Shown: positions 1 to 49,190 of the stretch, in pieces
Position numbering within the stretch: position 1 is the first letter of the stretch
Layout: each line of letters begins with the position of its first letter
Assembly: GCA_027622655.1 (NCBI GenBank)
Contig: JAQBYI010000007.1
Coordinates: 1 to 64,000 of the forward strand
DNA: 64,000 nt
Direction of reading: 5' to 3'
DNA from: Gemmatimonadota bacterium
GTDB taxonomy: Bacteria > Gemmatimonadota > Gemmatimonadetes > Gemmatimonadales > Gemmatimonadaceae
Program-made: the position numbers and the translations under genes
The notes under the pieces: generated by a model
Database searches by the model: none
Seen by the model: only the letters and a program-made list of their open reading frames with translations
Told to the model about the DNA's origin: nothing

Positions 1-1208
1 CCGCCCGCCCCGCCACGCCCGCCGCGGCCACCGGCCCCTCCGCCCGCACCGGCGCGCCCACCACCGTTCGACGCGGAATCAGCGGCCACGTAGTACATCC
101 CGGCGCCAGCCGGCATCCACGCCAGCAGGCGCTTTCCTTCCGGACCGTCAGCGCCACCGCGCCCACCGAATCCGGCGCCGGCCTGCGTCGAATCGGGGCG
201 TTCCCGCAGAGGTCTCTTCTGCAACTCTGTGAGCACCTTTCCGTTCACGTCCCACAGCTGCTCCACGTCGCCGAAGCTCGTGTACTGCACCATGTACGAG
301 AACGGCTCAAGCATAGCGTTCACGCGGAAGTACTGGCCATCCGGTGACGGGTCCACACTCCGAAACATTGCCGGCGAGCCAATCTTCTTCACGGCCTTCG
401 TCTTCACGTCAATCACGGCAAGCTGACCAGTCGTGTAGTACTTCAGCTGGTCGAACTGCCACGGCTCGTCCATCAGGCTCGCGAAGTTGCGCTGCGGAGA
501 CTTTACCGGATCGAGCCAGACGTTCACCTGCGGTCCCGTGGCGATGTCCGGCTGCTTTGGTTCCGCGCCGCGCCCGTCCGGGATGAGCACCACGATGACG
601 CTTTTGCCATCGGCGGTCCAGTCCACGCTCGTCACCAGCGTGGCGAGTAGCGCGGTCCTGGTCACTTGCACCGACTTTGCGGTCGCAATATCCGCCACGT
701 AGGCGTGCGACGCGGCGGCGAAGTTCGCGATGTACGCGAGTTGCCTGCCGTCGGGTGACCACGTGGGGCTGCTTACGGTCGCGCCCTTCGGAATCTCGAT
801 CGACGTGGACTTCCCTGTAACCGCGTCGATCAACGACAGTCCCTTGCTGCCGCGCGTCGTAAGTGTGCGCGCACGATTCGCCATGGGATCAACCTGCAGG
901 CCACCGTAATAGTTGTGCGGCTTGCCGAACTCCTGCACGCTCGGAAGACCTTCGCTCTCCTGCTTCAGAAAGGTCGTCCGATCGGGGCTCGGCTGATTGA
1001 GAGCGATATTGAGGTGACGCGGTGCGGTCACGAGCTTCGCAATCTCGGCAGGAGGAAGCTGGTATCCCTCCTTGGCGAGCAGTTCTCTATCGGCAGCCAT
1101 CTGTGCGGCCGCGTTCACGTTGCCTTGTGCACGAACCGGCACGACGAGCAACGACAGGCCGACTGCGGCGGCTGATACCATGCGGAGGACACGCTGAATG
1201 CGCATCAT
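1..1208 (-). CDS. Exported S9-type peptidase, N-terminal part (cut by window edge)
   Basis: The reading frame opens at ATG 1208 (MMRIQRVLRM) behind a GAGG ribosome site and stays open to base 1, so about 402 codons are visible and the C-terminal end is missing. It starts with a signal peptide ending near PVRAQG. Blade-like segments such as SPTWSPDGRQLAYIA follow, typical of the N-terminal beta-propeller of S9 (prolyl oligopeptidase or glutamyl endopeptidase-like) exported peptidases. The catalytic alpha/beta hydrolase domain with Ser, Asp and His would lie outside the window, so activity cannot be judged. A Gly/Arg-rich stretch lies at bases 1-75, like those in the other exported peptidases here. 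The S9 call rests on propeller style only. Confidence 0.8.
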   Translation of the reverse strand, partial: MMRIQRVLRMVSAAAVGLSLLVVPVRAQGNVNAAAQMAADRELLAKEGYQLPPAEIAKLVTAPRHLNIALNQPSPDRTTFLKQESEGLPSVQEFGKPHNYYGGLQVDPMANRARTLTTRGSKGLSLIDAVTGKSTSIEIPKGATVSSPTWSPDGRQLAYIANFAAASHAYVADIATAKSVQVTRTALLATLVTSVDWTADGKSVIVVLIPDGRGAEPKQPDIATGPQVNVWLDPVKSPQRNFASLMDEPWQFDQLKYYTTGQLAVIDVKTKAVKKIGSPAMFRSVDPSPDGQYFRVNAMLEPFSYMVQYTSFGDVEQLWDVNGKVLTELQKRPLRERPDSTQAGAGFGGRGGADGPEGKRLLAWMPAGAGMYYVAADSASNGGGRAGAGGGAGGRGGRGGAG

Positions 1209-3229: not shown

Positions 3230-3290
3230 ACCGTCCCGAACCGTCCCGAACCGTCCCGAACCGTCCCGAACCGTCCCGAACCGTCCCGAA
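3221..3290. repeat. 10-bp tandem repeat, seven copies
   Basis: The unit ccgtcccgaa is repeated seven times; the first copy has one mismatch. The array begins inside the 69-bp element and ends three bases before the stop codon of the O-antigen ligase-like gene, filling the gap between two minus-strand genes. Units abut with no spacers, which excludes a CRISPR array. Confidence 0.95.
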
Positions 3291-7006: not shown

Positions 7007-7077
7007 CGGTGCGGTCGGTATTTTCCGTGTGGGATCACGCACGTCGCCGCGCAAATCTTCATGGACATTTGCCGAAT

Positions 7078-8457
7078 ATGCATCCTCGCAATCATCTGTA
7101 CATCCGCCTGACCGCAATTCGCACCGCGTTGAGTAGCGTGTTCGGTAGCGCGCTGGCAATCGGCGCTGCTGCAACGCTCGCTGCAACGCTCGCTGCAACG
7201 CTCGCTGCAACGCTCGCTGCAACGCTCGCTGCACCACTCGCCGCGCAGGGTTCGCTGCCGGTGAACGATCCCGGAATTCGCCGCGCATTCGACGCCATCC
7301 AGTCGTGGAACAGCTGGATTCTCGAAAATCAGGTGTCACTGTGCGAAATCCCGGCGCCACCATTCAAGGAACAGGTTCGCGGCATCGAATTTCGGAAACG
7401 GCTGATCGCACTCGGGTATCGCGACACAAAGATCGATGTAGTGGGCAACGTGATCGCCGAACGCGCCGGACGCGGCGGCGGCCCGACCGTCATGATCTCG
7501 GGGCATCTCGATACCGTCTTTCCTGAGGGGACCGACGTTTCGGTCAAGAAGGAAGGCGAGCGATATACCGGAGCCGGCATCGGTGACGATTGCCGTGGAC
7601 TCGCCGTGATTCTCGCAGTCGCGCGCGCGCTCAACGAAGGCCGGATCCAGACACTGGGAACGGTCATTCTTGTCGCGAACGTCGGTGAAGAAGGGCCGGG
7701 CAATCTGCGCGGAGTGCGCGAGCTGTTCAACAATGGCTACAAGGGGAAAATCGACCGGTACATCTCCGTGGACGGCACCGGATTCGACGTGACGTCACGC
7801 GCTGTGGGAAGCAATCGTTACAACGTGGTTTTCACCGGCCCCGGCGGTCACAGTTATGGGGCGTTCGGAAGAGTGCCGAGCGCCATCCACGCGATGGGCC
7901 GCGCGATCGCGCTCATTGATGAGATCGTCCCGCCGCCCGGCATCAAGACGACGTACAACGTCGGCGTCATCAAGGGCGGCACATCGGTGAACACCATTTC
8001 GCCCGACGGGTCGATGGAAGTGGACATGCGCTCGGAGTCGGTGGACAACCTCGCGAAAATCGACGAGATGATTCACGACGCCGTCGCAAGAGCCGTAAGC
8101 GCCGAGAATGCCCGCTGGCCCAACTCGCCTGCGAAAATCACAGTGAAGTTCGATACGATCGGCATTCGTCCGGTTGGCCGGGTTGTGCAGACGGACGCGA
8201 CACCGATCATCAAGACCGCGCTCGACGCCGCCCTGGCGCTCGACATTGAGGCCAAGACCAGTGCGAGCAGCACCGACAGTAACCTGCCAATGAGCTTGGG
8301 AATTCCCGCCATGACGATTGACGGAGGCGGCCGTGGTGGTAACTCCCACGCAGCGGGTGAGTGGTACGAGGATGGCGCAACGGGGTATAAAGGCCCACAA
8401 TGGGCTTTATTGATAGTGGCGTCGCTCGCCGGACTGGCCGGTACGACGACACCATGA
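7078..8457 (+). CDS. Exported M20 family metallopeptidase
   Basis: A 459-residue exported zinc peptidase of the M20 clan. The metal-binding and catalytic segments are GHLDTVFPEG (His and Asp ligand region), GIGDDCRG, and NVGEEGPGNLRG with the Glu-Glu pair. A late His lies in GNSHAAGEW. It probably removes residues from short peptides in the periplasm. The signal peptide is unusual: its hydrophobic core is a tandem LAAT repeat encoded by 12-bp DNA units. ATG 7078 is the most upstream start consistent with a signal peptide; the frame is open further upstream but there it overlaps the acyl-CoA synthetase start. A Gly/Arg patch (GRGGG) sits next to the metal site. Confidence 0.92.
   Translation: MHPRNHLYIRLTAIRTALSSVFGSALAIGAAATLAATLAATLAATLAATLAAPLAAQGSLPVNDPGIRRAFDAIQSWNSWILENQVSLCEIPAPPFKEQVRGIEFRKRLIALGYRDTKIDVVGNVIAERAGRGGGPTVMISGHLDTVFPEGTDVSVKKEGERYTGAGIGDDCRGLAVILAVARALNEGRIQTLGTVILVANVGEEGPGNLRGVRELFNNGYKGKIDRYISVDGTGFDVTSRAVGSNRYNVVFTGPGGHSYGAFGRVPSAIHAMGRAIALIDEIVPPPGIKTTYNVGVIKGGTSVNTISPDGSMEVDMRSESVDNLAKIDEMIHDAVARAVSAENARWPNSPAKITVKFDTIGIRPVGRVVQTDATPIIKTALDAALALDIEAKTSASSTDSNLPMSLGIPAMTIDGGGRGGNSHAAGEWYEDGATGYKGPQWALLIVASLAGLAGTTTP
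7168..7239. repeat. 12-bp tandem repeat in the M20 signal peptide
   Basis: Five identical copies of gctgcaacgctc followed by one degenerate copy, in frame, encode the repeated tetrapeptide LAAT in the hydrophobic core of the signal peptide. Gain or loss of a unit would lengthen or shorten the core by four residues without a frameshift. Confidence 0.95.
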
Positions 8458-13398: not shown

Positions 13399-14835
13399 AT
13401 GCTCCGTACCCGATTTGTCAGTTCTGTACTCGCCGTTGCCGTCTTTGCCGGGCTCGGCGCCACGACGTCCCTCCTCGCCGCACAGCAGCTGGCCCCGCAC
13501 CAGCAGCTCCTCAGGGACGTCTACAAGGAACTCATCGAGATCAACACCTCGGTGATCACCTCGGGCACGACAGTCGCCGCCGAGGCGATGGCCAAGCGCT
13601 TTCGCGACGCCGGTTTCCCGGAACGGGACATCTACCTCGGCGGACCGCGCGCCGATAAGCACAACATCGTCGTTCGCCTTCGCGGCCGCGGAGGAGCAAA
13701 CGCGCCGAAACCGTTGCTCCTGCTCGCCCATCTCGATGTGGTCGAGGCGCTCAAGAGCGATTGGTCGGATGACCTGGATCCGTTCAAGTTCCTCGAACGT
13801 GACGGTTTCTACTACGGACGCGGGACGACCGACGACAAGGCGCAGGGCGCAATCTTCGTCGCCAATCTCATCCGGATGAAGCAGGACGGTTTTGTTCCTG
13901 ACCGCGACATCATCCTTGCGCTCACCGCTGACGAGGAAGGAGGCGGGTTCAACGGCGTGCGTTGGCTCCTCCAGAATCAGCGCGCTCTCGTGGACGCTGC
14001 GTTCGTCGTCAACGAGGGTGGCCGGGGGGCGCTCAAGAACGGCAAGCCGATCTTCAACGAGATGCAGGCCACGCAGAAGAACTTCGTGATGTTCACCGTT
14101 ACGGCGAAGAACCGGGGCGGCCACTCGTCCGTTCCCCGGCCCGACAATGCCATTTATCAACTCGCCGAGGGCATCGCGCGGTTTTCCAAATACAACTTTC
14201 CCGTCAAGCTGAACACGGTCACGCGCGTCTTCTTTGAGCGCACCGCCGCCGTCGAATCGCCCGAAGTTGGCGCCGCCATGACCGCGATCGTCAAGGATCA
14301 GAACGACGCCGCGGCCACGGCGGTCCTGGCCAAGGACCCGCGCTACAACTCGATGCTGCGCACGACCTGTGTCGCCACCGGCCTCACCGGCGGCCACGCG
14401 TCTAATGCGCTGCCGCAGACAGCTCAAGTCTCGATCAACTGCCGGATTCTGCCGGACGCGGTGCCCACGGAGGTCCGCGATGCGATCATCGCCGCCTTCG
14501 CCGATCCGGAGCTTGAAATCTCGGCTCCGCCGGCCCGTGCGCAGGTTGATCCATCGTCAATCGGTCCGGAAATGTTGGGCCCGGTCGAGTTGGTGACTCG
14601 CGAAGTCTACGGAGATATCCCGGTCATTCCGTCCATGAGCACCGGCGCCACAGATTCGCAGGCATTTCGCGTCGCTGGTATTCCTGCGTATGGAGTGTCG
14701 GGAATCATGAATGACGTGGACGACATCCGTGCGCATGGTCGCGACGAGCGGCTGCCCATAAAGTCGCTCTACGACGGGCAGGAGTTTCTCTATCGTCTCA
14801 CGAAGTTGTTCGCGACCACACGAACCGTTCCATGA
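13399..14835 (+). CDS. Exported M20 family metallopeptidase / carboxypeptidase
   Basis: A 478-residue zinc peptidase with a signal peptide (FVSSVLAVAVFAGLGATTSLLAA). The catalytic core shows LLAHLDVVEA (His and Asp), GRGTTDDKAQG, and LTADEEGGGFNG with the Glu pair. The lid domain contains NRGGHSSVPRPDN, typical of M20 carboxypeptidases and acetylornithine deacetylase relatives. A GRGG motif precedes the metal site. The stop overlaps the next peptidase gene by four bases, so the two exported peptidases are coupled and probably act together on periplasmic peptides. It differs in sequence from the M20 protein at 7078-8457. Confidence 0.93.
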   Translation: MLRTRFVSSVLAVAVFAGLGATTSLLAAQQLAPHQQLLRDVYKELIEINTSVITSGTTVAAEAMAKRFRDAGFPERDIYLGGPRADKHNIVVRLRGRGGANAPKPLLLLAHLDVVEALKSDWSDDLDPFKFLERDGFYYGRGTTDDKAQGAIFVANLIRMKQDGFVPDRDIILALTADEEGGGFNGVRWLLQNQRALVDAAFVVNEGGRGALKNGKPIFNEMQATQKNFVMFTVTAKNRGGHSSVPRPDNAIYQLAEGIARFSKYNFPVKLNTVTRVFFERTAAVESPEVGAAMTAIVKDQNDAAATAVLAKDPRYNSMLRTTCVATGLTGGHASNALPQTAQVSINCRILPDAVPTEVRDAIIAAFADPELEISAPPARAQVDPSSIGPEMLGPVELVTREVYGDIPVIPSMSTGATDSQAFRVAGIPAYGVSGIMNDVDDIRAHGRDERLPIKSLYDGQEFLYRLTKLFATTRTVP

Positions 14836-16949
14836 TGCGCAATCGTGTGGCATGCAGCGCGCTCGCCGTTGCACTGAGCGCGGCCGCACCGGCGCTCGGT
14901 GCACAACCCGATGCCGCTGTAGCCGGAGCGGTTGCATCGTGGATCGTCGTCAACGCACCTGCCGGCTCCGAAGGACGCGCATCGGTCAACGCGACATTCA
15001 CGGGCTGGACCGTTGATCGCTGGGGCAACTACATCAAACGCGCCGGGAGCGGCACACCGCGCCGTGTGGTCGCGTGCGCGCTCGATCAATCCGGATACGT
15101 CGTAAGTCAGATTACCGATCAGGGATATCTGCGCCTGCGACGTACGGGTGCCACAGTCCCGCACCAGCTCTGGGACCAGTTCCACGAAGGCCAGCGCATC
15201 GCGATTCTCACGAAGACTCGCATTGTAAAGGCGATCAGTGCCATCGCGAACGGTCACTATGCCGCATTCCATCGTGCCGATTCGCTCGCGGCAACTGTTG
15301 ACCAACTATGGATCGACGTCGGGGCGTCATCGCGCGCGGACGTAGGGAAACTCGGCATCACCCTGCTCGACCCGGTGTTCTACGACCGCCCGGCGTGGAC
15401 GTACGAGGGATTCGCGTCGGGGCCAAACGCCGGTGCTCGCGCGGGATGCGCGGCCGTCGCGACGGCCGCTGCTGCAGGCGCACCGCAATCCGGAGAAACG
15501 ATTTTCGTTCTTTCCACCCAGCGAGTGTTCGGATGGGTTGGACTTGGCGCGTTTCTGTCGCAGCTCGGACCGATTGACGCAGTGACCGTGTTCGACGTCG
15601 GCGCTTCTGACGGATTCGACGGCGATCCTGCCGCTGCAGGCGGGAGCGGTCGAGGACGTGGTGCTCGCGGTGGTGGCGGTGGTCGCGGCGGCCCGACGCA
15701 AGCCATTCGTGCGGTGGTCGAGGGCGCACAGACCAACGCGCTGCGGCTCGTCACCCCCGCTGTGCGTTGGCCGGGGTCGGTCGTCGAGTCGATTCACGCG
15801 ACCGATGCCAGGTCGCTCGTGCGCGCCGCGTTGAATGCGGCAAAGTCAACGGCAAACACCGACTCTCCGATGGCGTTGGCGCTCGATACCACGCGCGTAC
15901 TCACGCCTCGTTCGGATGCGTACGGCGCCATCGAAACACAGTTCCTCACACTTGCCGACATGCCGGCCTCGCCGGGTCACGAGTGGCGCGTACGCGAAAC
16001 GCTCCTCGCCGCCCTCCCGAAGTGGGCGCGCGATCGCGCCGTGACCGATTCGGCTGGAAACATCGTCGTAACGGCGGGCCCAGATCGCGATCCGATGGCT
16101 TTTGTCGCGCACATGGATGAGGTGGGCTACGAAATCACTGAAATTCAGCGCGACGGTAGCGTGTCGCTTCGCAGGATGGGCGGCGCTGTCTCGCAGGCCT
16201 GGGAAGGACGTCCGGCCCTGCTCCACTTCGACACCGATGCCAACGGCCGCGCTCCCGAATCGTTGCGAGGCGTCTTCGTTCCGCGCGATGCGGCCCGGCT
16301 ACGCGATCCCGAAGACCTCACGGCGTGGTTTGGAATGGACTCCGCAGCGCTCGTAGCCCGCGGCGTTCGCGTCGGCCAGTCCGTGCTCGGTTACAAGCGC
16401 GGTGAGCGGCTCGATGGCACGCGTCTGGTTGCGCGTGCAAATGACGATCGCGCCGGTGCGACGGCCCTCCTCTTTGCCGTCCAGCGCCTCAATCCCGCGC
16501 AGCTCACGCGAAAGACTTATTTCGTCTGGACCGTGCGCGAGGAGGGTGGACTGCAGGGTGCCCGCGCGTTCGGCGCTGAACACGGGAGTGAGTTGACCCG
16601 CGTCTACAGCATCGACACCTTCGTCTCGAGCGACACGCCACTCGAGTCACCACACTTCGCGTTCGCGCCGCTCGGCGATGGCGCGGTGCTTCGTGGGCTC
16701 GACAACGGTGCGCTGACTCCGCCAACCGAGCGCGATCGCATCATCGACATCGCGCGGTCTGCACGAATTCCGCTGCAGATCGGTACGACCTTCGGCAGCA
16801 CCGACGGCTCGGCGATAATGGGGCGCGGACCGGTGCACGCGTCGTTGTCGTGGCCGGGCCGTTATTCCCATACTCCGGCCGAAGTACTCGATCTGCGTGA
16901 TCTCGATGCGCTCGTGCGGCTGGTTGTTGCGCTGGCGATAGCGCCCTAG
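14832..16949 (+). CDS. Exported tandem M42-like aminopeptidase with degenerate N-terminal half
   Basis: A 705-residue exported protein built from two M42 (FrvX)-like units. The C-terminal unit keeps the motifs: AFVAHMDEVGYEI, NDDRAGATAL, TVREEGGLQGA with the catalytic Glu pair, the Asp in SSDTP, TFGSTDGSA, and RYSHTPAEVLDLRDLD. The N-terminal unit repeats the layout without ligands: CALDQSGYVV replaces the His-x-Asp site, and STQRVFGWVGLG replaces the Glu pair. It therefore looks catalytically dead. A Gly/Arg-rich loop (GRGRGARGGGGGRGG) separates the halves. A single M42 protein is about 350 residues, so this is a duplication. The start overlaps the upstream M20 gene (ATGA). Confidence 0.85.
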   Translation: MMRNRVACSALAVALSAAAPALGAQPDAAVAGAVASWIVVNAPAGSEGRASVNATFTGWTVDRWGNYIKRAGSGTPRRVVACALDQSGYVVSQITDQGYLRLRRTGATVPHQLWDQFHEGQRIAILTKTRIVKAISAIANGHYAAFHRADSLAATVDQLWIDVGASSRADVGKLGITLLDPVFYDRPAWTYEGFASGPNAGARAGCAAVATAAAAGAPQSGETIFVLSTQRVFGWVGLGAFLSQLGPIDAVTVFDVGASDGFDGDPAAAGGSGRGRGARGGGGGRGGPTQAIRAVVEGAQTNALRLVTPAVRWPGSVVESIHATDARSLVRAALNAAKSTANTDSPMALALDTTRVLTPRSDAYGAIETQFLTLADMPASPGHEWRVRETLLAALPKWARDRAVTDSAGNIVVTAGPDRDPMAFVAHMDEVGYEITEIQRDGSVSLRRMGGAVSQAWEGRPALLHFDTDANGRAPESLRGVFVPRDAARLRDPEDLTAWFGMDSAALVARGVRVGQSVLGYKRGERLDGTRLVARANDDRAGATALLFAVQRLNPAQLTRKTYFVWTVREEGGLQGARAFGAEHGSELTRVYSIDTFVSSDTPLESPHFAFAPLGDGAVLRGLDNGALTPPTERDRIIDIARSARIPLQIGTTFGSTDGSAIMGRGPVHASLSWPGRYSHTPAEVLDLRDLDALVRLVVALAIAP

Positions 16950-16984
16950 CAAAGCGGGGCGCAAAACGGGGCGCAAAACGGGCC
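16949..16984. repeat. 12-bp tandem repeat, three copies
   Basis: Units gcaaagcggggc, gcaaaacggggc and gcaaaacgggcc lie head to tail from the last base of the M42-like gene toward the convergent VOC gene, covering most of that gap. Confidence 0.85.
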
Positions 16985-16999
16985 AAGTCCAAAGCTGTG

Positions 17000-17872
17000 C
17001 TACGCTTCGGCCACCAGGCGCACGGCTGTTCCCGATGGATCGCGCGCAACGGCGGCGTTGTCGCCGTCGGCAGTCGTCGCTCCACCGGACTCGGTGATGC
17101 GCGCTGAGACTTCGGCGAGTTCCCGCGCGTCGCGAAGCATCAGTTCCCAGTACAGCAACTGCGGCTCGTCTGGCACGGATGCTTCGGCACCTCGCGCCCA
17201 GGTGTTCGCACCAAGGTGGTGGTGATAGCCGCCGGCACTCATGAAGAGCGCGCCGGGATATCGACGTACCATCACGTCGAATCCAATCGCGTCGCTGTAA
17301 AACGCTTCGGCGCTCACCAGGTCGCCAACGTGCAGGTGCATGTGTCCGATCGTCGTGCCTGCGGGCATTCCCGTCCACGGCCCGACCCCGGGTTCGCGCG
17401 CGAGCCCTTCTGCATCGAGCGGATCGGTGGCCATGGCCAGCTCGGTACCGTCATGGCGCCACTCGGCTTTCGGACGGTCCCTGTAGATCTCGATGCCGAG
17501 CCCGTCCGGGTCGTTGAGGTAGAGCGCTTCACTGACCAAATGGTCCGACATCCCCAGCCGAACGCCTTGCTCATGCAGGTGCAGCATCACACTGCCAAGC
17601 GACGCGCGATCGGGAAGTAGAATCGCGAAATGAAAGAGTCCGAGACGGCTGCGCGGCGGTAGCGCGCTCGCGACGGGCCGCTCCACGAGAGCGATGAGCG
17701 TTCGACCGCCGGCCGGTACTCCCAGCTGTGCTTCGCTGCCATCACGCCTCAGCAACACGAAGCCGAGGAGGTCGCGATAAAACGCGACTGAACGTTCGAG
17801 GTTCGTCACTTGCAACCGCACACCGCCCACGTGAGCGCCGTCGCTGAGCCGCGCGTTCATTTGCCTCGTCAT
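17000..17872 (-). CDS. VOC family (glyoxalase / catechol 2,3-dioxygenase-like) protein
   Basis: A 290-residue protein with two vicinal-oxygen-chelate modules. The first starts VGGVRLQVTNLERSVAFYRDLLGF and ends in DPDGLGIEIYRD. The second starts GHMHLHVGDLVSAEAFYSDAIGF and contains GGYHHHLGANTW. This arrangement matches CatE-like ring-cleavage dioxygenases, where His, His and Glu bind iron. Here His in HMHLHV, His in GGYHHHLG and Glu in the first DPDG segment are candidates. ATG 17872 overlaps the stop of the CHAD-CYTH gene (ATGA), so the start is well fixed and the genes are coupled. The substrate is unknown. Confidence 0.87.
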   Translation of the reverse strand: MTRQMNARLSDGAHVGGVRLQVTNLERSVAFYRDLLGFVLLRRDGSEAQLGVPAGGRTLIALVERPVASALPPRSRLGLFHFAILLPDRASLGSVMLHLHEQGVRLGMSDHLVSEALYLNDPDGLGIEIYRDRPKAEWRHDGTELAMATDPLDAEGLAREPGVGPWTGMPAGTTIGHMHLHVGDLVSAEAFYSDAIGFDVMVRRYPGALFMSAGGYHHHLGANTWARGAEASVPDEPQLLYWELMLRDARELAEVSARITESGGATTADGDNAAVARDPSGTAVRLVAEA

Positions 17873-19404
17873 CGAGCGAGTACGGCATTCACATACTCTG
17901 GCTCGTCGGTCACTTCGCGCACCAGGCATCGCGCCAGCCAGTCCGGAACCGGTACGTCGTCCCGCGCGGACCTCAACTCGATTTCGGCCAGCACGAGTCG
18001 CTGGTCGCGAAACTCATCGATCTCCCATACCTGCCCCGCGTCGGCCAGACGGTATCGGAACTTGCGGACCCGCTTCCCTTTCGTGAGTGGCCAGAGCGCC
18101 TTGAATACGGCGTAGCTGCACTCCTCTTCCACTTCAGTACGTACGAGCCCCGAACCTGTCTTGACGGTGCGAACGTAGCGCACGCCGTCGGCGGTCTTCA
18201 CGCGGCGTACGCGCTCGATCAGGACGCTGCCGGGCAGGTAGCCCTGCTCGATTTCCGCGACCGGCGCAGCCTTGGCCTCAGGCGGGAGTTTTCGCAGCAG
18301 GTACTTTCGTTCGATTTCCACTCCGGCCCCGCCAATGTCCTGCAGTTGGCGGATGACGTCGTGAACAGCATCGGCAAGTGCGGCGAAGTCGCGTTCCATC
18401 CACGCCGTCGTGAATTCAGTCCACGCCTCGTTGCGTCGCGTTTTGAGCCGCCTGCTCAGGGCGCGCAACCCCTTCTGAGGATTCCGACTCGTCACGCCGC
18501 CCTTCGACTTCGGCTGCGTTCGCGCATGGCGCCGCACGACCCGCGTGAACACGTACGCGTCGTGCATAGACCCAAGCAGATCCTGAAGTCGTTTCAACAA
18601 TTCGATGCACTCAGGAACGCCCTCCACCGGTCCGGCGAGCGGTTCAAGCAGATAGCGCAACCGCTTTCCCGCGATGCGCGCGCGATGCGCCTGCTCGTCG
18701 CTGTCCAGGTCTTCGATTGCAGCCAGGCATCGGCGAAGAACCGTAAACGCTTCCTGAACCTGACCCGCTGCGGTGGCAGCCCATCTATCGGCGGGTTCCT
18801 GATCCCAGACGGCGACGGCATACCGGGCCAGGTTCTTCCGTAGCCGGGCCGACACTTCGGTGAATTCCTCGGCCAGTACTGAACGCAACGCGGCGTCCGC
18901 ACGCGTCTTTTCAGCTCTGAGCCGTTTGGCGAGCCATCGAGCGCCAGGTCGCTCCGCGGGCTGCAGCGTTCCGCCCTGGGCGGTGATCCACTCGAGGTGA
19001 ACTTCGATGTCTCTACTGTCCGTGGTGACGCGTGCGAGCTCCGCGAGCCGCCGAAGCGTCTTCGAACCGACGCTGTCGCTCAACTCGCGATGGTAGGCAC
19101 GCATCCAGCTGCGCAACCGACGCATGGCGACACGGAAATCGTGCAACGCTTCCGTGTCGCCTTTCGCGCCCAGCCGTGGATACTCCGCGTCGATTGCATC
19201 GATCAATGCAATCGCCACCGCGCGCGCGGCGCGAGGCGTTGGTTCGATCAGCAGTGCACCGGCGTCAAACGGAGCGCTGGTGACTCCCTGTCCTTCGCGG
19301 GCCTCGGCCCGCGCGTTACGGCGCGCCACCGCCACCCGGGCGCTGCGCTGCAGGCGGCGTGCCGTCACGCAGGATGCGCTGGCGCTCGAGGTATGTCTCA
19401 CCAT
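17869..19404 (-). CDS. CHAD-CYTH domain protein in reversed order
   Basis: A cytoplasmic protein with a CHAD helical domain at residues about 50-330 (LHDFRVAMRRLRSWMRAYH and RIAGKRLRYLLE, the conserved His/Arg/Lys helices) and a CYTH triphosphate-tunnel domain at about 365-511, starting with the hallmark EIERKYLL. CHAD binds polyphosphate and CYTH enzymes hydrolyse triphosphate compounds, so a polyphosphate-related role is likely. The usual fusion is CYTH first, then CHAD; here the order is swapped. The start is uncertain: ATG 19404 overlaps the S9 gene by 89 bp, and GTG 19329 gives a 14-bp overlap. The frame lacks other starts before the CHAD domain. Confidence 0.86.
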   Translation of the reverse strand: MVRHTSSASASCVTARRLQRSARVAVARRNARAEAREGQGVTSAPFDAGALLIEPTPRAARAVAIALIDAIDAEYPRLGAKGDTEALHDFRVAMRRLRSWMRAYHRELSDSVGSKTLRRLAELARVTTDSRDIEVHLEWITAQGGTLQPAERPGARWLAKRLRAEKTRADAALRSVLAEEFTEVSARLRKNLARYAVAVWDQEPADRWAATAAGQVQEAFTVLRRCLAAIEDLDSDEQAHRARIAGKRLRYLLEPLAGPVEGVPECIELLKRLQDLLGSMHDAYVFTRVVRRHARTQPKSKGGVTSRNPQKGLRALSRRLKTRRNEAWTEFTTAWMERDFAALADAVHDVIRQLQDIGGAGVEIERKYLLRKLPPEAKAAPVAEIEQGYLPGSVLIERVRRVKTADGVRYVRTVKTGSGLVRTEVEEECSYAVFKALWPLTKGKRVRKFRYRLADAGQVWEIDEFRDQRLVLAEIELRSARDDVPVPDWLARCLVREVTDEPEYVNAVLAR

Positions 19405-22255
19405 TCGAGATCCAGTCCGCGGCCGGCTCGTCCTTCAAATAGTGAGCGAACCACTCGAGTTGGCGTTTCTGATAGTCTCGCTGACTCTCAGCGCGCGCGA
19501 CGTTGTGGTTCTCGCCTTCGTACACGAGGTACACCACCTGTTTGCCGAGCCGGCGTCCGAAGTTGTACAGCTCCTGACTTTGGAACGGATTCACGTTTCC
19601 GTCTGAATCGCCTTCCTCGAGAAGCAACGGAATGCGCAGCGAGTCCATCGCGAACACCGTCGAGTTCCTGATATACGCTTCGCGATCCTCCCACAGCGGC
19701 ACTTCCATGCGCTCCTGACTCGTCTCGAAATGCTGGCTCTCCGCGAAACCGGAGTTTCCGGACGTGTAGCCGTACATCGAAATGAGGTTGGTGAGCGGCG
19801 CGCCGGCAATCGCGGCTGCGAATGTTCCGGGCGCGTGCACCGCGTAGAACGCACTCTGGTAGCCGCCCCACGAATGGCCCATCGCACCCACGCGCTTGCC
19901 GTCGATGTCGCCCACGCTCGCCAGCACCGTCTTCACCGCAGACGTCACGCAGTCGAGGCCAGACCAGCCGGGATTGCGTTTCTCGAAGACAACGTCGGGC
20001 CTGAGAACGAAGTATCCGTTCTGGCTGAAAACCTGAGTGTTGTACACCGTGCGATCGCTCAGACCCACGTACTGATTGAATCCCTGCGACAGCAGTTCGT
20101 AGTAGTGCACGACCATCGGATACTTCTTGCCCGGTTCGTAGTTTGCCGGATACGTCAGCATCATCTGCAGTTTTTCGCCACGCTTGTTGCGGTAATCCAT
20201 CAACTCCTGCCGGCCCCACGCGTAGTCCGACTGGAACGCATTGGTGTGCGACACTTGCGTGGCGCTGCCGAGCGCATCCGACGTAGCTACGAAGTAGTCC
20301 GGCGAGTCGCCGAAACTCTGCTCCAGATACACGTACGTCTCGGCGTCGCGTGCCTTTCGGATCTGGGTTACTGATTTGTCGCGCCAGACGAGCGGTTCCA
20401 CCTTGCCCGCAGCGAGCTTGGCGTATCCGCTCTGCTTGCTGCGGTTGCCAAACATGGAGAGCATCACGGGCTTCGAGAAATCGATCGCTTGCGCACCGCC
20501 GCCACCACCGCCACCGCCCCGGCCGCCGAATCCGCCGCCCGCACGGTCTGGGTCGAGCGATACGTAGCGGTAGATGGTCGTGTCCTCACGGCCACGTGTC
20601 AGGCGCTCCGCGGCCGAGCCATCGACGCTCAGCCGCCACACGTCAAACCGGTCGTAGACCACTGCGGCTCGCTCGTCGGGAGTCCAGCCGGCAAATCCGT
20701 ACACAGACCGCTCGGGAAGCGGGTGATCGTCCTCGAGGTTGACGAAGCTGCTTCGAATCTTTCCCGTGAGGTTCGTGCGCTTGCCGGTCGATGCGTCGAA
20801 CGCCCACCAATGTCCCTTCTGCGCGTACAACACGTGCGCTCCGCTGGGCGATATCGCCGTGGCACCAATCGCGTGCGCAACGACTTGCACGCGATTTCCC
20901 GTTCCCACGTCAACACGGTACACATCGCGATACGAACGGCCGGTCATCACTTCTTGTGCGTAGGGAGACTGGTCGCTCGCGATCGCCGCGTTGCGCTGCT
21001 CGGAGAACTGCAGCGTCTCGTAGGGATCGTAGGAAAGCCGCACCACGTGGTCAGAAGAAACGTTCCACGAAACCGGCAGCGTACGCCGTCGGTCTTGCGC
21101 CGCACCTACTTCCTGCTGGTGAAACTGACGCAGATCCTTCCAGTGCCAGACCTGCACACGCGCCGGAGCTGAGCCGGCGCGCCCGCCGCGTCCGCCGCGT
21201 CCGGCCGGGGCCGGCTTCGGTTCGCGCGGCGCAATGCCGAACACGAGAGAGCTTCCGTTTTCGCTCCACTGCAGCGCACGGTACGATGCCACGCGCGTGT
21301 CCTTCGAGAATGACGCATCTGTAGAGAAATCGTATTCCAGACGCGACGGTGTCGCACTCACGTCCTTCCAGGCGATGACGACGACGCTCGTATCGACAAA
21401 CATCGTGTCGGTTCGGCTACGGAACACCGCCAGATCGTTACTCTCGGCACGCCACGCAATTCCGGTGTAGTCGTGATCGCCCGCATCGAGCGACCTCAGT
21501 GCCCCGGTCGTCGCGTCGAAGAGTTGCACGCCGTTTCCGGTGCGACCGTCAACGTCGACCGTCATCGCCAGTAGCGTCCCAGCGCCGGCCCACGCGAATT
21601 CCGCGATGTTGCCGAACGTGACCTGCGTGCCGCCCGCGAGATTCCTTACCACCAGATCGGCACCGCGTGCGGCGGGTGGGGATCCAGCAGCGGCGGGCGC
21701 ACGATAGCGCCGCAGCGCGGCGTGCGCCCCGTCACGCGACAGTTCGAATGACTGGACGTCGTCGAACGACACCGTTGTTCCGGCGCTGAGATCAATGAGC
21801 CCCACCTTGTTTCGCGCGCCCGCACCGCCTGCTCCGCCACGCCCGCCGCGCCCACCAGCGCCACGCCCACCAGCGCCACGCCCACCAGCACCGCTACCTT
21901 CCGATCCACTCGTATCCGGCGCGATGGTGTAAGCCAACCACCGGCTGTCACGCGTGAACCGGGGCGCAGATCCACGCGCCACAGTCTGCTCCGCGCCGCC
22001 CGCAACGAGCCGATAGCGCAGCTCGTTCGCTCCGTTCACCCTGCGGAGCTCGTACGCAATCCATTTGCCGTCCGGCGACAGATCGGCGCCGGCAACGGAC
22101 TCCCATTTGGTGTACTCGCTGGCCGGAACAGGTCCTCTGGCGGCTTGCGCCACGGACGCAGTCGCGCCCTGAGCGCGGGCAATTCCCGTTACCGAAACGG
22201 CTACGGCGATGATGACGACCGAAAGGACGGTCAGGGTGTCTCGAACGCTCTGCAT
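19316..22255 (-). CDS. Exported S9 family prolyl oligopeptidase-type peptidase
   Basis: A 979-residue exported serine peptidase with an N-terminal propeller and a C-terminal alpha/beta hydrolase domain. The nucleophile is Ser in GAMGHSWGGYQSAF, the Asp is in LEEGDSDGNVNP, and the His is in YEGENHNVARAES. Three Gly/Arg-rich loops interrupt the propeller (GGRGAGGRGAGGRGGRGG, GRGGRGGRAG and GFGGRGGGGGGGG). The first overlaps a 15-bp DNA repeat, and the C-terminus ends GGGGAP. ATG 22255 has AGGAAGAG upstream and leads directly into a signal peptide, so it is preferred over an in-frame ATG further upstream. It is divergent from the M14 gene. Substrates are probably proline-containing or other short peptides. 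Confidence 0.93.
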   Translation of the reverse strand: MQSVRDTLTVLSVVIIAVAVSVTGIARAQGATASVAQAARGPVPASEYTKWESVAGADLSPDGKWIAYELRRVNGANELRYRLVAGGAEQTVARGSAPRFTRDSRWLAYTIAPDTSGSEGSGAGGRGAGGRGAGGRGGRGGAGGAGARNKVGLIDLSAGTTVSFDDVQSFELSRDGAHAALRRYRAPAAAGSPPAARGADLVVRNLAGGTQVTFGNIAEFAWAGAGTLLAMTVDVDGRTGNGVQLFDATTGALRSLDAGDHDYTGIAWRAESNDLAVFRSRTDTMFVDTSVVVIAWKDVSATPSRLEYDFSTDASFSKDTRVASYRALQWSENGSSLVFGIAPREPKPAPAGRGGRGGRAGSAPARVQVWHWKDLRQFHQQEVGAAQDRRRTLPVSWNVSSDHVVRLSYDPYETLQFSEQRNAAIASDQSPYAQEVMTGRSYRDVYRVDVGTGNRVQVVAHAIGATAISPSGAHVLYAQKGHWWAFDASTGKRTNLTGKIRSSFVNLEDDHPLPERSVYGFAGWTPDERAAVVYDRFDVWRLSVDGSAAERLTRGREDTTIYRYVSLDPDRAGGGFGGRGGGGGGGGAQAIDFSKPVMLSMFGNRSKQSGYAKLAAGKVEPLVWRDKSVTQIRKARDAETYVYLEQSFGDSPDYFVATSDALGSATQVSHTNAFQSDYAWGRQELMDYRNKRGEKLQMMLTYPANYEPGKKYPMVVHYYELLSQGFNQYVGLSDRTVYNTQVFSQNGYFVLRPDVVFEKRNPGWSGLDCVTSAVKTVLASVGDIDGKRVGAMGHSWGGYQSAFYAVHAPGTFAAAIAGAPLTNLISMYGYTSGNSGFAESQHFETSQERMEVPLWEDREAYIRNSTVFAMDSLRIPLLLEEGDSDGNVNPFQSQELYNFGRRLGKQVVYLVYEGENHNVARAESQRDYQKRQLEWFAHYLKDEPAADWISNGETYLERQRILRDGTPPAAQRPGGGGAP
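21851..21891. repeat. 15-bp tandem repeat inside the S9 peptidase gene
   Basis: Unit cccaccagcgccacg occurs 2.7 times, in frame, encoding part of the GGRGA repeat of the first Gly/Arg-rich loop of the S9 peptidase. Confidence 0.85.
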
Positions 22256-22362
22256 GGTTACTCTTCCTGAACGGATGTGGAGGCCATCATCATACGGTCT
22301 GGCCCACCTCATTTCCACGGCGCGCTGGTCCCATGCCGCGTGCCGCCCTAACGGAGTTGCTC

Positions 22363-25035
22363 ATGCCGGTTCCAACTCTGCCGTGCGTTTCGCGCCGGCT
22401 GTTCGCCCTTCTGGCCGTCGCGGCTCTCTCCGGCACGATTGCCGAGGGCCAGACGCCAGCCGCGGTCCCCGCACCGGAATCTGTATTCGGGTTCAAGGTC
22501 GGCGCCGATAGCCAGCTTTTCGACTACGCACAGTCCATCGCGTACTTCCAGCGGCTCGCGAGCGCCAGTAACCGGATCAAGCTGATCGAGGTCGGAAAGA
22601 CCTCGTTCGGCAAGCCGTGGACAGTGGCGATCATTTCGTCTCCGCAGAATCTCGCGCGGCTCGACCACTACAAAGAGATCAACCAGCGACTCGCGCATCC
22701 CGACGGCCTGAGCGACAGCGCCGCGCGCGCGCTTGCGCGCGAAGGCAAGGTCTTCGTCGACATCAGCGGCGGCCTGCATGCATCGGAAATAGCGGGATCG
22801 CAGCACACGCCTCAGCTTGCGTACGATCTCCTCTCCAGGGCCGCCGAACCCGAAATTGACGCGATTTTCGACAACGTGATATTCATGCTCTGGCCATCGA
22901 TCAATCCCGATGGGCAGGACATCGTCGTGAACTGGTGCCGCGACCAGTATGCCGGACGGAATACCAGAATGGAGCTCTACCAGAAATACATCGGGCACGA
23001 CAACAATCGCGACAGCTACATGATGAACGTCATTGAGTCGCGGGTCATCCAGAAGACGTGGCGTGAGTGGGAGCCCGACATCATCTACGTGCACCACCAG
23101 TCGTCGCCTGAGCCGACGCGCATGTGGATTCCGCCGTTCGCCGATCCCGTTGGCCAGCGCGCGCCGCCGCTTCCCGCGCGCACGATCAACACCATCGGGA
23201 TGTACATCGCTCAGGAACTCGACGCGCACGGCCAGCCCGGCGGCGTACACATGCTCGCGACATTCGATGCGTACTATCCCGGCTACATCGACTACATGCC
23301 GGTGTACCAGAACATCCCGGCTTGGTGGACCGAGACGCAGGGCGGAAGCTGCGCAACTCCCAAGCAGCCCGGACGTCCGGAGAATTTTTCACCTGCGTAC
23401 CGTGAGCTGCGTCCGCAGGCGTTGTACCTGAGCCCGTGGGAAGGTGGCCCGTGGGGACTGCGCGACGCCGTGGACTACATGGTGACGGCGTCCCGCGCCA
23501 CGCTCAAGTTCGCGTCCAAGTTCCGTGAAGAGGTGCTCTACAATCGCTACCAGTCCGGCCGCGACGTCATCCGCAAGTACCGAACGTCGGCGCCGTACGC
23601 ATACATCGTTCCGCAGAAACAGCACGATCCCATGGCGCCGGTCGAACTTCTGCGCCGTTTCGCGTTCCATGGTGTTCGCATCAGCCAGCTTGATCGCGAT
23701 ATGACCCACGAAGGCACGTCCTACCCTAAGGGAACGTGGGTTGTGCCATTGGATCAGGAGTTCGGCGAACTCGTCCGCGAAGTCTTCGAGGTACAGAATT
23801 ATCCCGAAATGGGAGATGATCTCCCGTACGACGCGGCCGGGTGGACGTTGCCGTTCCAGATGGGCGTCAAAGTGGCCGAGGCGACGCAGCCTCTTTCGGC
23901 CGACTTCCGCGCGGCAATGACGGCCGTGCGCGGAACGCCGGAACCGTGGGGCATGTCGCCCGACTATCCGTTTACGACAAACGCCGTCGCCGCGGGAATC
24001 GTCGCGCCGGGTGGTGGCGCGTCGGGACGTGGTGATCACCTGCTGATCAACCCTGCCGAGAACAACGGATTTCGTTTCGTTACCAAGGCGCTCGCGGCGG
24101 GTGCCACGGTTCGCTATGTACCAGAGGCTCCCGCCGGTGGGGCACGTTGGGCTGTCAGTGGACTTGCCACGGCGAGCGCCAATACGTGGGCCACAGAGCT
24201 CTCGGTAAACGCACAACGGATAGCATCGCTTCCGCCATCACAGGTCGCGCCGAAGCGGGTCGCGCTCTACAAGGCGGCGCCGGGCAACATGGATGAAGGC
24301 TGGACGGAATGGTTGTTCGACACGCACGGATACGATTACTCGTTGATCGGCCCTGAAGACCTGCAGTCGGGGAACCTCAACGACAGATTAGACGTGATCG
24401 TCACGGGATCACAGGCGTTCGGCGCCGCTGGTGGTGGTGGACGTGGCGGGCGCGGTGGGGGAGGGGGACGCGGCGGCGGCGTGGATAGCACAGCGCTCCG
24501 CGCCGGAGAGGCGCGCACCGCTTCTGTTGGAGCCTTCGTGAATGACGGCGGAACGCTCGTCACGTGGAACCAGGGCGCAACCGCCGCGGTCGGGTCGTTG
24601 AATCTTCCCGTGCGAAACGTCGTGGCTGGTCTGCCAAGGAGCGAGTACTTCACGGGAAGCTCGCTGATGCAGGTTGTGGTGGACATCGCCCATCCAGTGA
24701 TGGCCGGGATGCCCGCGTCGGCCGACGTCATGGTCAGCGGCAGCCCGGTTTTTGCCACGACAGAAGGTTTCGACGGATCGGTAATCGCAAAGTTCACTCC
24801 GAGACCGCTCCGCTCAGGCTACCTCAGCGGTGCCAAGTACATCCAACAGCAGGCAGCCGCGCTCGACGTGAAGCGCGGCAAGGGGCACGTAGTGCTCTTC
24901 GGCTTTCAGCCGCAGTGGCGCGGCCAGCCCACCAGCACGTTCCGCATGGTGTTCAACTCGCTGATGTTCGGAGGCGAGGTGAGCGCCGCTGCCAAGGGAA
25001 CGCCGGGATTCTTTCAACCGCCGATCGTGCCCTAG
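22363..25035 (+). CDS. Exported M14 family zinc carboxypeptidase
   Basis: An 890-residue exported metallopeptidase. The M14 core is at the N-terminal side: GGLHASEIAGSQ gives the first His and Glu zinc ligands, and SINPDGQDIVVNW is the following conserved segment. A long C-terminal extension holds a glutamine amidotransferase-like or jelly-roll-like region and a Gly/Arg loop (GGGGRGGRGGGGGRGGG). This M14 subtype with a large extension is common among exported proteins of environmental bacteria. ATG 22363 follows cggag at good spacing and starts a signal peptide; ATG 22333 is in frame but poorly placed. It is divergent from the S9 peptidase. Confidence 0.9.
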   Translation: MPVPTLPCVSRRLFALLAVAALSGTIAEGQTPAAVPAPESVFGFKVGADSQLFDYAQSIAYFQRLASASNRIKLIEVGKTSFGKPWTVAIISSPQNLARLDHYKEINQRLAHPDGLSDSAARALAREGKVFVDISGGLHASEIAGSQHTPQLAYDLLSRAAEPEIDAIFDNVIFMLWPSINPDGQDIVVNWCRDQYAGRNTRMELYQKYIGHDNNRDSYMMNVIESRVIQKTWREWEPDIIYVHHQSSPEPTRMWIPPFADPVGQRAPPLPARTINTIGMYIAQELDAHGQPGGVHMLATFDAYYPGYIDYMPVYQNIPAWWTETQGGSCATPKQPGRPENFSPAYRELRPQALYLSPWEGGPWGLRDAVDYMVTASRATLKFASKFREEVLYNRYQSGRDVIRKYRTSAPYAYIVPQKQHDPMAPVELLRRFAFHGVRISQLDRDMTHEGTSYPKGTWVVPLDQEFGELVREVFEVQNYPEMGDDLPYDAAGWTLPFQMGVKVAEATQPLSADFRAAMTAVRGTPEPWGMSPDYPFTTNAVAAGIVAPGGGASGRGDHLLINPAENNGFRFVTKALAAGATVRYVPEAPAGGARWAVSGLATASANTWATELSVNAQRIASLPPSQVAPKRVALYKAAPGNMDEGWTEWLFDTHGYDYSLIGPEDLQSGNLNDRLDVIVTGSQAFGAAGGGGRGGRGGGGGRGGGVDSTALRAGEARTASVGAFVNDGGTLVTWNQGATAAVGSLNLPVRNVVAGLPRSEYFTGSSLMQVVVDIAHPVMAGMPASADVMVSGSPVFATTEGFDGSVIAKFTPRPLRSGYLSGAKYIQQQAAALDVKRGKGHVVLFGFQPQWRGQPTSTFRMVFNSLMFGGEVSAAAKGTPGFFQPPIVP

Positions 25036-49007: not shown

Positions 49008-49054
49008 CCTGCTGGAGCTCGGGTGCGGTATGAGTCGCGCGGCTAATGCTGACC

Positions 49055-49138
49055 GTGTCCTAAGCAGTGTCCTAAGCAGTGTCCTAAGCAGTGTCCTAAG
49101 CAGTGTCCTAAGCAGTGTCCTAAGCAGTGTCCTAAGCA
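49055..49138. repeat. 12-bp tandem repeat, seven copies
   Basis: The unit gtgtcctaagca is repeated seven times with no spacers, followed by a partial copy, in the gap between the ATP-grasp gene and tRNA-Phe. It lies outside both genes. Confidence 0.96.
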
Positions 49139-49190
49139 GTGCCCCATGGCCGGCGGTTGCCCAGCAGTGGTCACGGGAAATCAACAGAAA

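Follow-up and report, generated by a model that had tools for sequence, protein, structure and literature searches.

The subject of this analysis is a recurrent glycine- and arginine-rich (Gly/Arg-rich, GR) loop in exported proteins of a Gemmatimonadota bacterium of the family Gemmatimonadaceae. It was first seen in a stretch of 64,000 nucleotides (the window; contig JAQBYI010000007.1, here C106) of a 3,144,997-base genome assembled in 115 contigs. We scanned all six frames of the window and called its genes with a simple caller, counting as a GR loop any 12 residues with at least nine Gly plus Arg, at least two Arg and at least five Gly. Six such loops lie in four exported proteins, two of the S9 peptidase family, one M14 and one M42. 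By destination, the rule was satisfied in 4 of 15 exported, 0 of 30 cytoplasmic and 0 of 3 membrane proteins of the window, and shuffled exported window proteins gave an expectation of 0.0 loops (5 shuffles). The M42-type protein has a full M42 domain in its C-terminal half, and its N-terminal half, which bears the loop, is M42-like as well. A sequence-only reading of the window had reported GR loops in the S9, M14 and M42 proteins; these are borne out, and the phenomenon proved larger than that reading noted, extending across the genome.

The same reading had placed GR loops near the metal site of both exported M20 proteins, where we found no extra GR-rich loop beyond the family turn. Aligned to 7LJH, a solved M20 enzyme used as reference for two of the turns, and to orthologs, these motifs are short ordinary family turns, and we rejected them as GR loops; for example, where the window has RGRGGANAP, one ortholog reads GRGGANAP and three others read GRDAG or GRDTG. 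Its statement that the carrier families are not homologous holds for S9 and for the wider carrier set but is too strong for M20 and M42, since the M42 protein also matches M20 and M28 profile models and the M20 proteins match M28. The general point that the carriers are unrelated stands, because carriers genome-wide include many other folds, such as propellers, a secretin, penicillin amidase, DUF1800 and an aldo/keto reductase.

Table 1. Loop-bearing genes, their GR loops and the M20 family turns in the window.
Feature	Positions	Strand	Remarks
Exported S9-type protein, propeller part only, truncated by contig start	3..1208	-	Signal peptide; weak DPPIV_N and PD40 matches
GR-rich loop of truncated S9-type protein, NGGGRAGAGGGAGGRGGRGGAG	3..68	-	Extends into contig start
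M20 protein (7069-8457), turn AGRGGGP	7465..7485	+	Aligns with GTGPAGGP of 7LJH; excluded from GR-loop count
M20 protein (7069-8457), second turn GGGRGGNSH	8323..8349	+	Aligns with GSGGIGARAH of 7LJH; excluded from GR-loop count
M20 protein (13399-14835), turn RGRGGANAP	13681..13707	+	Family turn; excluded from GR-loop count
Exported M42-type peptidase	14832..16949	+	Pfam PF05343; both halves align with solved M42 enzymes
GR-rich loop in N-terminal half of M42 protein, AGGSGRGRGARGGGGGRGGPTQ	15636..15701	+	
Exported S9 peptidase, propeller and hydrolase domain, 979 residues	19316..22255	-	Pfam PF00326; fold matches S9/DPPIV structures
S9 loop 3, residues 570-586	20498..20548	-	
S9 loop 2, residues 350-363	21167..21208	-	
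S9 loop 1, residues 120-148	21812..21898	-	
Exported M14-type peptidase with C-terminal domain	22333..25035	+	Pfam PF00246; signal peptide
GR-rich loop in C-terminal part of M14 protein, FGAAGGGGRGGRGGGGGRGGGVD	24418..24486	+	

Across the whole window genome, a nucleotide pattern coding for GRGGRGG has 84 matches, versus 5 for a reversed control that preserves the GG runs and reads GGAGGAG; because tandem arrays can match several times, these figures count matches, not loops. No match exists in this genome for the lysine version of the pattern, nor for the Asp/Glu version (4 for the reversed control of the latter). Spacing is equally selective, with 84 matches when arginines are three residues apart, 17 at spacing 4 (control 8) and 1 at spacing 2 (control 2); this preference is taken from the whole-genome patterns, the loops in fetched stretches being biased by the choice of loci. 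When the 84 matches were placed on the fetched stretches and the window, 76 were in frame, 4 antisense, 2 outside called genes and 2 in other frames. The loops are arginine-specific, with Arg preferred at every third residue, which points to the chemistry of the RGG (Arg-Gly-Gly) box operating in exported enzymes. GC content as the sole cause is disfavoured, as S9 proteins at loci with a GC fraction of about 0.68-0.69 have no RGG-type loop.

The genome holds 41 distinct in-frame carriers, comprising by the export rule 24 called exported, 13 cytoplasmic, 2 with one membrane helix and 2 that are cut off. A comparison of exported with cytoplasmic proteins had been named beforehand as the check on the sequence-only reading. 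Setting aside the cut-off genes, 24 carriers are exported and 15 are not, versus 32 exported and 174 other among 206 background genes of unselected stretches (Fisher p = 1e-8); the loops are not equally common in cytoplasmic proteins. Among proteins of at least 350 residues, the exported share is 23 of 34 carriers versus 13 of 86 background genes (p = 5e-8). Inspected by eye, about nine of the 17 carriers not called exported have an evident Sec or Tat signal, and several others belong to exported families and have an uncertain start; as this inspection was confined to carriers and did not extend to the background, only the rule-based figures serve as a test. Three of the 41 look cytoplasmic (PNPase, PadR and TldD), and loops are absent from the membrane proteins surveyed (21 in unselected stretches, 42 around matches and 3 in the window).

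The carriers span many families. Unselected stretches contributed loop genes at a rate of 4 in 211 (a Vps10 protein, an S9 fragment, a creatininase and an 848-residue protein without family). Around the pattern matches there are 45 loop genes; all but one of them (L049:111-350) were scanned, and 36 of these 44 have a Pfam family at 1e-5. Carriers include seven S9 proteins, eight Vps10/BNR propellers, three M14 and four M28 proteins, together with amidohydrolases, a secretin, an NHL propeller, molybdopterin-binding, aldo/keto reductase, PIG-L, Met-zincin, DUF1800, penicillin amidase and glyoxalase proteins, and the three cytoplasmic-looking ones. Nucleic-acid-binding proteins account for two of the 41, and the majority are exported enzymes. 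One of the two is the RNA-binding enzyme PNPase (L037:4794-7118, minus strand), a cytoplasmic protein of the window genome with a C-terminal RGG tail, RGAARGARGGRGGRGGRGGRGGSRRA. The other is a PadR regulator (L049:2677-3219, plus strand), in which the stretch GRGGRGGRGSRGGR lies N-terminal to the DNA-binding domain.

Among 249 genomes of the phylum, the pattern is strongly above its control only in some genera, that of the window among them; these genus-level counts were checked by protein only at aligned S9 or M14 relatives and in genome G264. Outside the phylum, the Bryobacterales genome palsa_243 has 73 matches versus 11 for the control, with 28 of 29 matches in frame. By rule, 7 of its 20 carriers are exported and 8 cytoplasmic, while 4 are cut off and 1 has a single helix; several of the eight called cytoplasmic begin with an evident signal peptide. 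RGG loops, flexible and positively charged, have been put repeatedly into many unrelated exported enzymes in one Gemmatimonadota genus and in some soil Acidobacteria.

The structural setting was examined in the 979-residue S9 peptidase, whose model (37 sequences) reached a predicted local distance difference test score (pLDDT) of 81.2. Four internal segments fall below pLDDT 50 (residues 117-145, 349-362, 379-389 and 573-586), and three of them, all except 379-389, coincide with GR loops 1-3. In the model, these loops sit between propeller strands, with none in the hydrolase part, and they are predicted to be intrinsically disordered; this disorder result applies to S9 only, the M14 model having come from a three-row alignment with a pLDDT of 32.7.

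Comparison with relatives traces when the loops arose. Of 110 S9 sequences, 13 (the query among them) have a GR-rich loop 1 and fall into four carrier clades (Fitch 4; support for the window's clade 0.69), and 12 have a GR-rich loop 3 and fall into three clades (Bryobacterales/Solibacter, the window's own group and a paralogue group); both carrier counts include one likely duplicate, as L070 and L164, whose pattern counts are equal, are probably the same genome. A loop was therefore gained at one S9 position at least three times, Bryobacterales included, which together with the unrelated carriers in one genome upholds the proposal of independent gain. In four S9 orthologs that are 56-60% identical, loop 1 is still Gly/Arg-rich with altered sequence and length, one of them falling below the GR cut-off. 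Where relatives lack GR, loop 1 is a stretch of charged and often basic residues, the loop 2 site carries long inserts, and loop 3 is mostly a short turn; the net charge of loop 1 has a median of +4.5 in 6 carriers versus +2 in 74 others. The M14 loop is kept at 78% identity (L114 and L115) and is GR-rich in six orthologs at 62-66% identity, again with altered sequence and length, but is replaced in orthologs at 54-56%, among them those of genomes G019 and G045. Absence from relatives, which would have spoken against the sequence-only reading, was found at S9 loop 2 (GR-rich in 1 of 110 sequences) and, in the single ortholog seen, for the M42 expansion, and not at S9 loops 1 and 3 or the M14 loop.

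At the DNA level, like codons in the 71 loops analysed from the window genome share their third base at lag 3 more often than in a between-loop shuffle (274 of 658, 0.416 versus 0.302; z 6.6), with further agreement at lag 6 (z 3.8), weak agreement at lag 4 (z 1.9) and none at lags 1, 2 or 5; the analysis was repeated on 68 loops. The lag-3 signal is a weak and mostly decayed memory of 9-bp duplication. No such synonymous memory was detected in 29 Bryobacterales loops, a smaller sample (91 of 251, 0.363 versus 0.363), so that a repeat process as the source of the loops, which the sequence-only reading had raised, has a trace in the window genome and none in Bryobacterales. Third positions in the loops are also shifted to T (Gly 0.28 versus 0.15, Arg 0.335 versus 0.13), while third-position G is depleted at loop arginines (0.08 versus 0.23); T is favoured and G avoided in the loops of both the window genome and Bryobacterales.

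The loops are thus genome-wide, in coding frame, located mostly in exported soluble proteins of many folds, and repeatedly gained. Two facts suggest that selection favours a flexible arginine surface: the loops are biased in frame, residue and destination, and they recur in another phylum whose loops show no DNA memory. Surface binding is plausible given the arginine specificity and the predicted disorder, and we tentatively favour, at somewhat less than even confidence, the idea that the loops are flexible, cationic, RGG-box-like tethers that may anchor exported enzymes to polyanions. In this view a short seed, GRG or GGR, would enter an insertion-tolerant loop, 9-bp tandem duplication would lengthen some of the seeded loops, and selection would retain those that give a flexible arginine surface, preserving composition and not exact sequence or length. 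Such a surface could keep the enzyme, once exported, attached to polyanions on or near the cell, candidates being extracellular DNA or RNA, acidic exopolysaccharide, lipopolysaccharide and humic matter.

Several observations weigh against polyanion tethering. Export calls are heuristic, and by rule only 7 of 20 Bryobacterales carriers are called exported. DNA-pattern enrichment alone can mislead: genome G031 has 41 matches versus 11 for the control, yet only 2 of 26 are in frame, so we rejected the idea that pattern counts can stand for loops in all genomes and treat genus-level counts as leads only. At S9 loop 2, net charge is +4 in the window protein versus a median of -5 in 80 relatives, ranging down to -34. 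The site holds long acidic or mixed low-complexity inserts in other lineages (50-66 residues and net charge -27 to -34 in the acidic inserts of L123, L126, L129, L130, L131 and L139), so a positive charge is not a requirement of the site as such. Taken together with its flanks, loop 3 has a median net charge close to neutral in 8 carriers (-0.5, versus -3 in 73 others). M14 orthologs of the same-genus genomes G019 and G045 have no GR loop, both the GR-rich state of S9 loop 2 and the expansion in the M42 protein seem to be recent, and the 9-bp duplication signal is present in the window genome.

That last signal is central to the main rival of the polyanion tether, in which the loops are a tolerated by-product without function: slippage in GC-rich genes would duplicate 9-bp GGN-CGN-GGN units, and these would persist only in flexible loops of beta-rich exported proteins, where they are tolerated. 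We regard this as a serious possibility, though one we doubt. Besides the synonymous third-base match at lags 3 and 6, it would account for the varying length of the M14 loop among close relatives, one of which (L115) has GGA repeats; for the short GGRGGG seed in the M42 ortholog of L114 (69% identical, the sole one seen), which has only SGGRGGG at the loop position; and for the other low-complexity inserts found elsewhere at the same sites. Duplication is, however, blind to frame, residue and destination, which sits poorly with the 76 in-frame matches, the empty Lys and Asp/Glu patterns and the 5 GGAGGAG matches, as well as with the Bryobacterales loops that lack 9-bp memory and the GC-rich loci whose S9 protein has no RGG-type loop. 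A cause at the level of the mRNA or DNA, such as a G-quadruplex or a codon-usage effect, of which the amino acids would be a by-product, seems very improbable: although the pattern holds five GG runs and loop third bases are shifted to T, the reversed pattern with the same GG runs is nearly absent, third-position G, which would extend the G runs, is depleted at Arg, and matches track the reading frame and exported genes. The loops might instead shield exported proteins from the many peptidases that the cell itself exports, or aid folding or export, without binding a ligand. Many carriers are indeed exported peptidases (S9, M14 and M28) and propellers, but plain flexibility would not lead one to expect arginine over lysine and alanine, and trypsin-like enzymes cleave at arginine, making it a cleavage site in its own right; we consider this explanation improbable. 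Tethering to polyanions is, in our assessment, the most likely use.

RGG boxes have been studied as intracellular RNA-binding, phase-separating segments. The loops resemble these RGG/RG boxes in their tandem RGG units, arginine at every third residue, preference for Arg over Lys and, for S9, predicted disorder, and the cytoplasmic PNPase tail shares the likeness. They differ from the boxes of nucleic-acid-binding proteins in being mostly internal loops of exported soluble enzymes and propellers. PE_PGRS proteins of mycobacteria are exported, Gly-rich proteins of a GC-rich genome with Gly-Ala repeats of the GGA/GGX type; Gly-rich repeats, export and a GC-rich genome are common to both, whereas GGAGGAG-type sequence is nearly absent here. 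The acidic S9 inserts at other loci, mostly labelled as Gemmatimonadetes, occupy the same insertion-tolerant loop 2 position with opposite charge and no GRG. A few record titles hint at a link to habitat, with GR loops in lineages from lakes, peat and soil and the acidic inserts in others. A survey of prokaryotic low-complexity regions (PMC6821194) reports that such regions contain less arginine than expected in bacteria, but that those of RNA-binding proteins are enriched in it. The loops share with the surveyed regions the glycine-rich stretches in bacterial proteins, and differ in that arginine is the second commonest loop residue in the window genome and the carriers are mostly exported. 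A literature search of partial coverage found no description of such exported Gly/Arg loops.

We further raise, as a speculative and on balance unlikely extension, an extracellular RGG system in which dozens of unrelated exported enzymes share one Arg-Gly tether and, needing neither a docking domain nor a sorting signal, assemble on a single anionic scaffold made of extracellular nucleic acid or acidic polysaccharide. The assembly might be a condensate, and the system would have separate origins in Gemmatimonadaceae and Bryobacterales. If tethering is real, RGG chemistry is also used outside the cell and was reached in two phyla, and the loops offer a testable handle on how uncultured soil and lake bacteria keep secreted enzymes near. 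If the loops are neutral, they provide a clear example of repeat growth filtered by destination, as well as a caution that loops at some contig ends can truncate genes in draft assemblies.

Four contigs have GR-loop matches no more than about 120 bases from an end (window 1-68; G000 C18:36-55, C83:21-49 and C19:10676-10704), and the loops thus seem to break the draft assembly, truncating genes. Near another GR loop, a Vps10-type gene (L041:4153-7570, minus strand) is apparently split into two overlapping frames by a frameshift or an assembly error. Separately, a 12-bp tandem repeat at about 7153-7255 of the window, in the signal-peptide region of an M20 gene, reads LAATLAAT on the plus strand and LQRALQRA-like on the minus strand, and similar short repeats lie near 3243-3290 and 49052-49139 (estimated positions).

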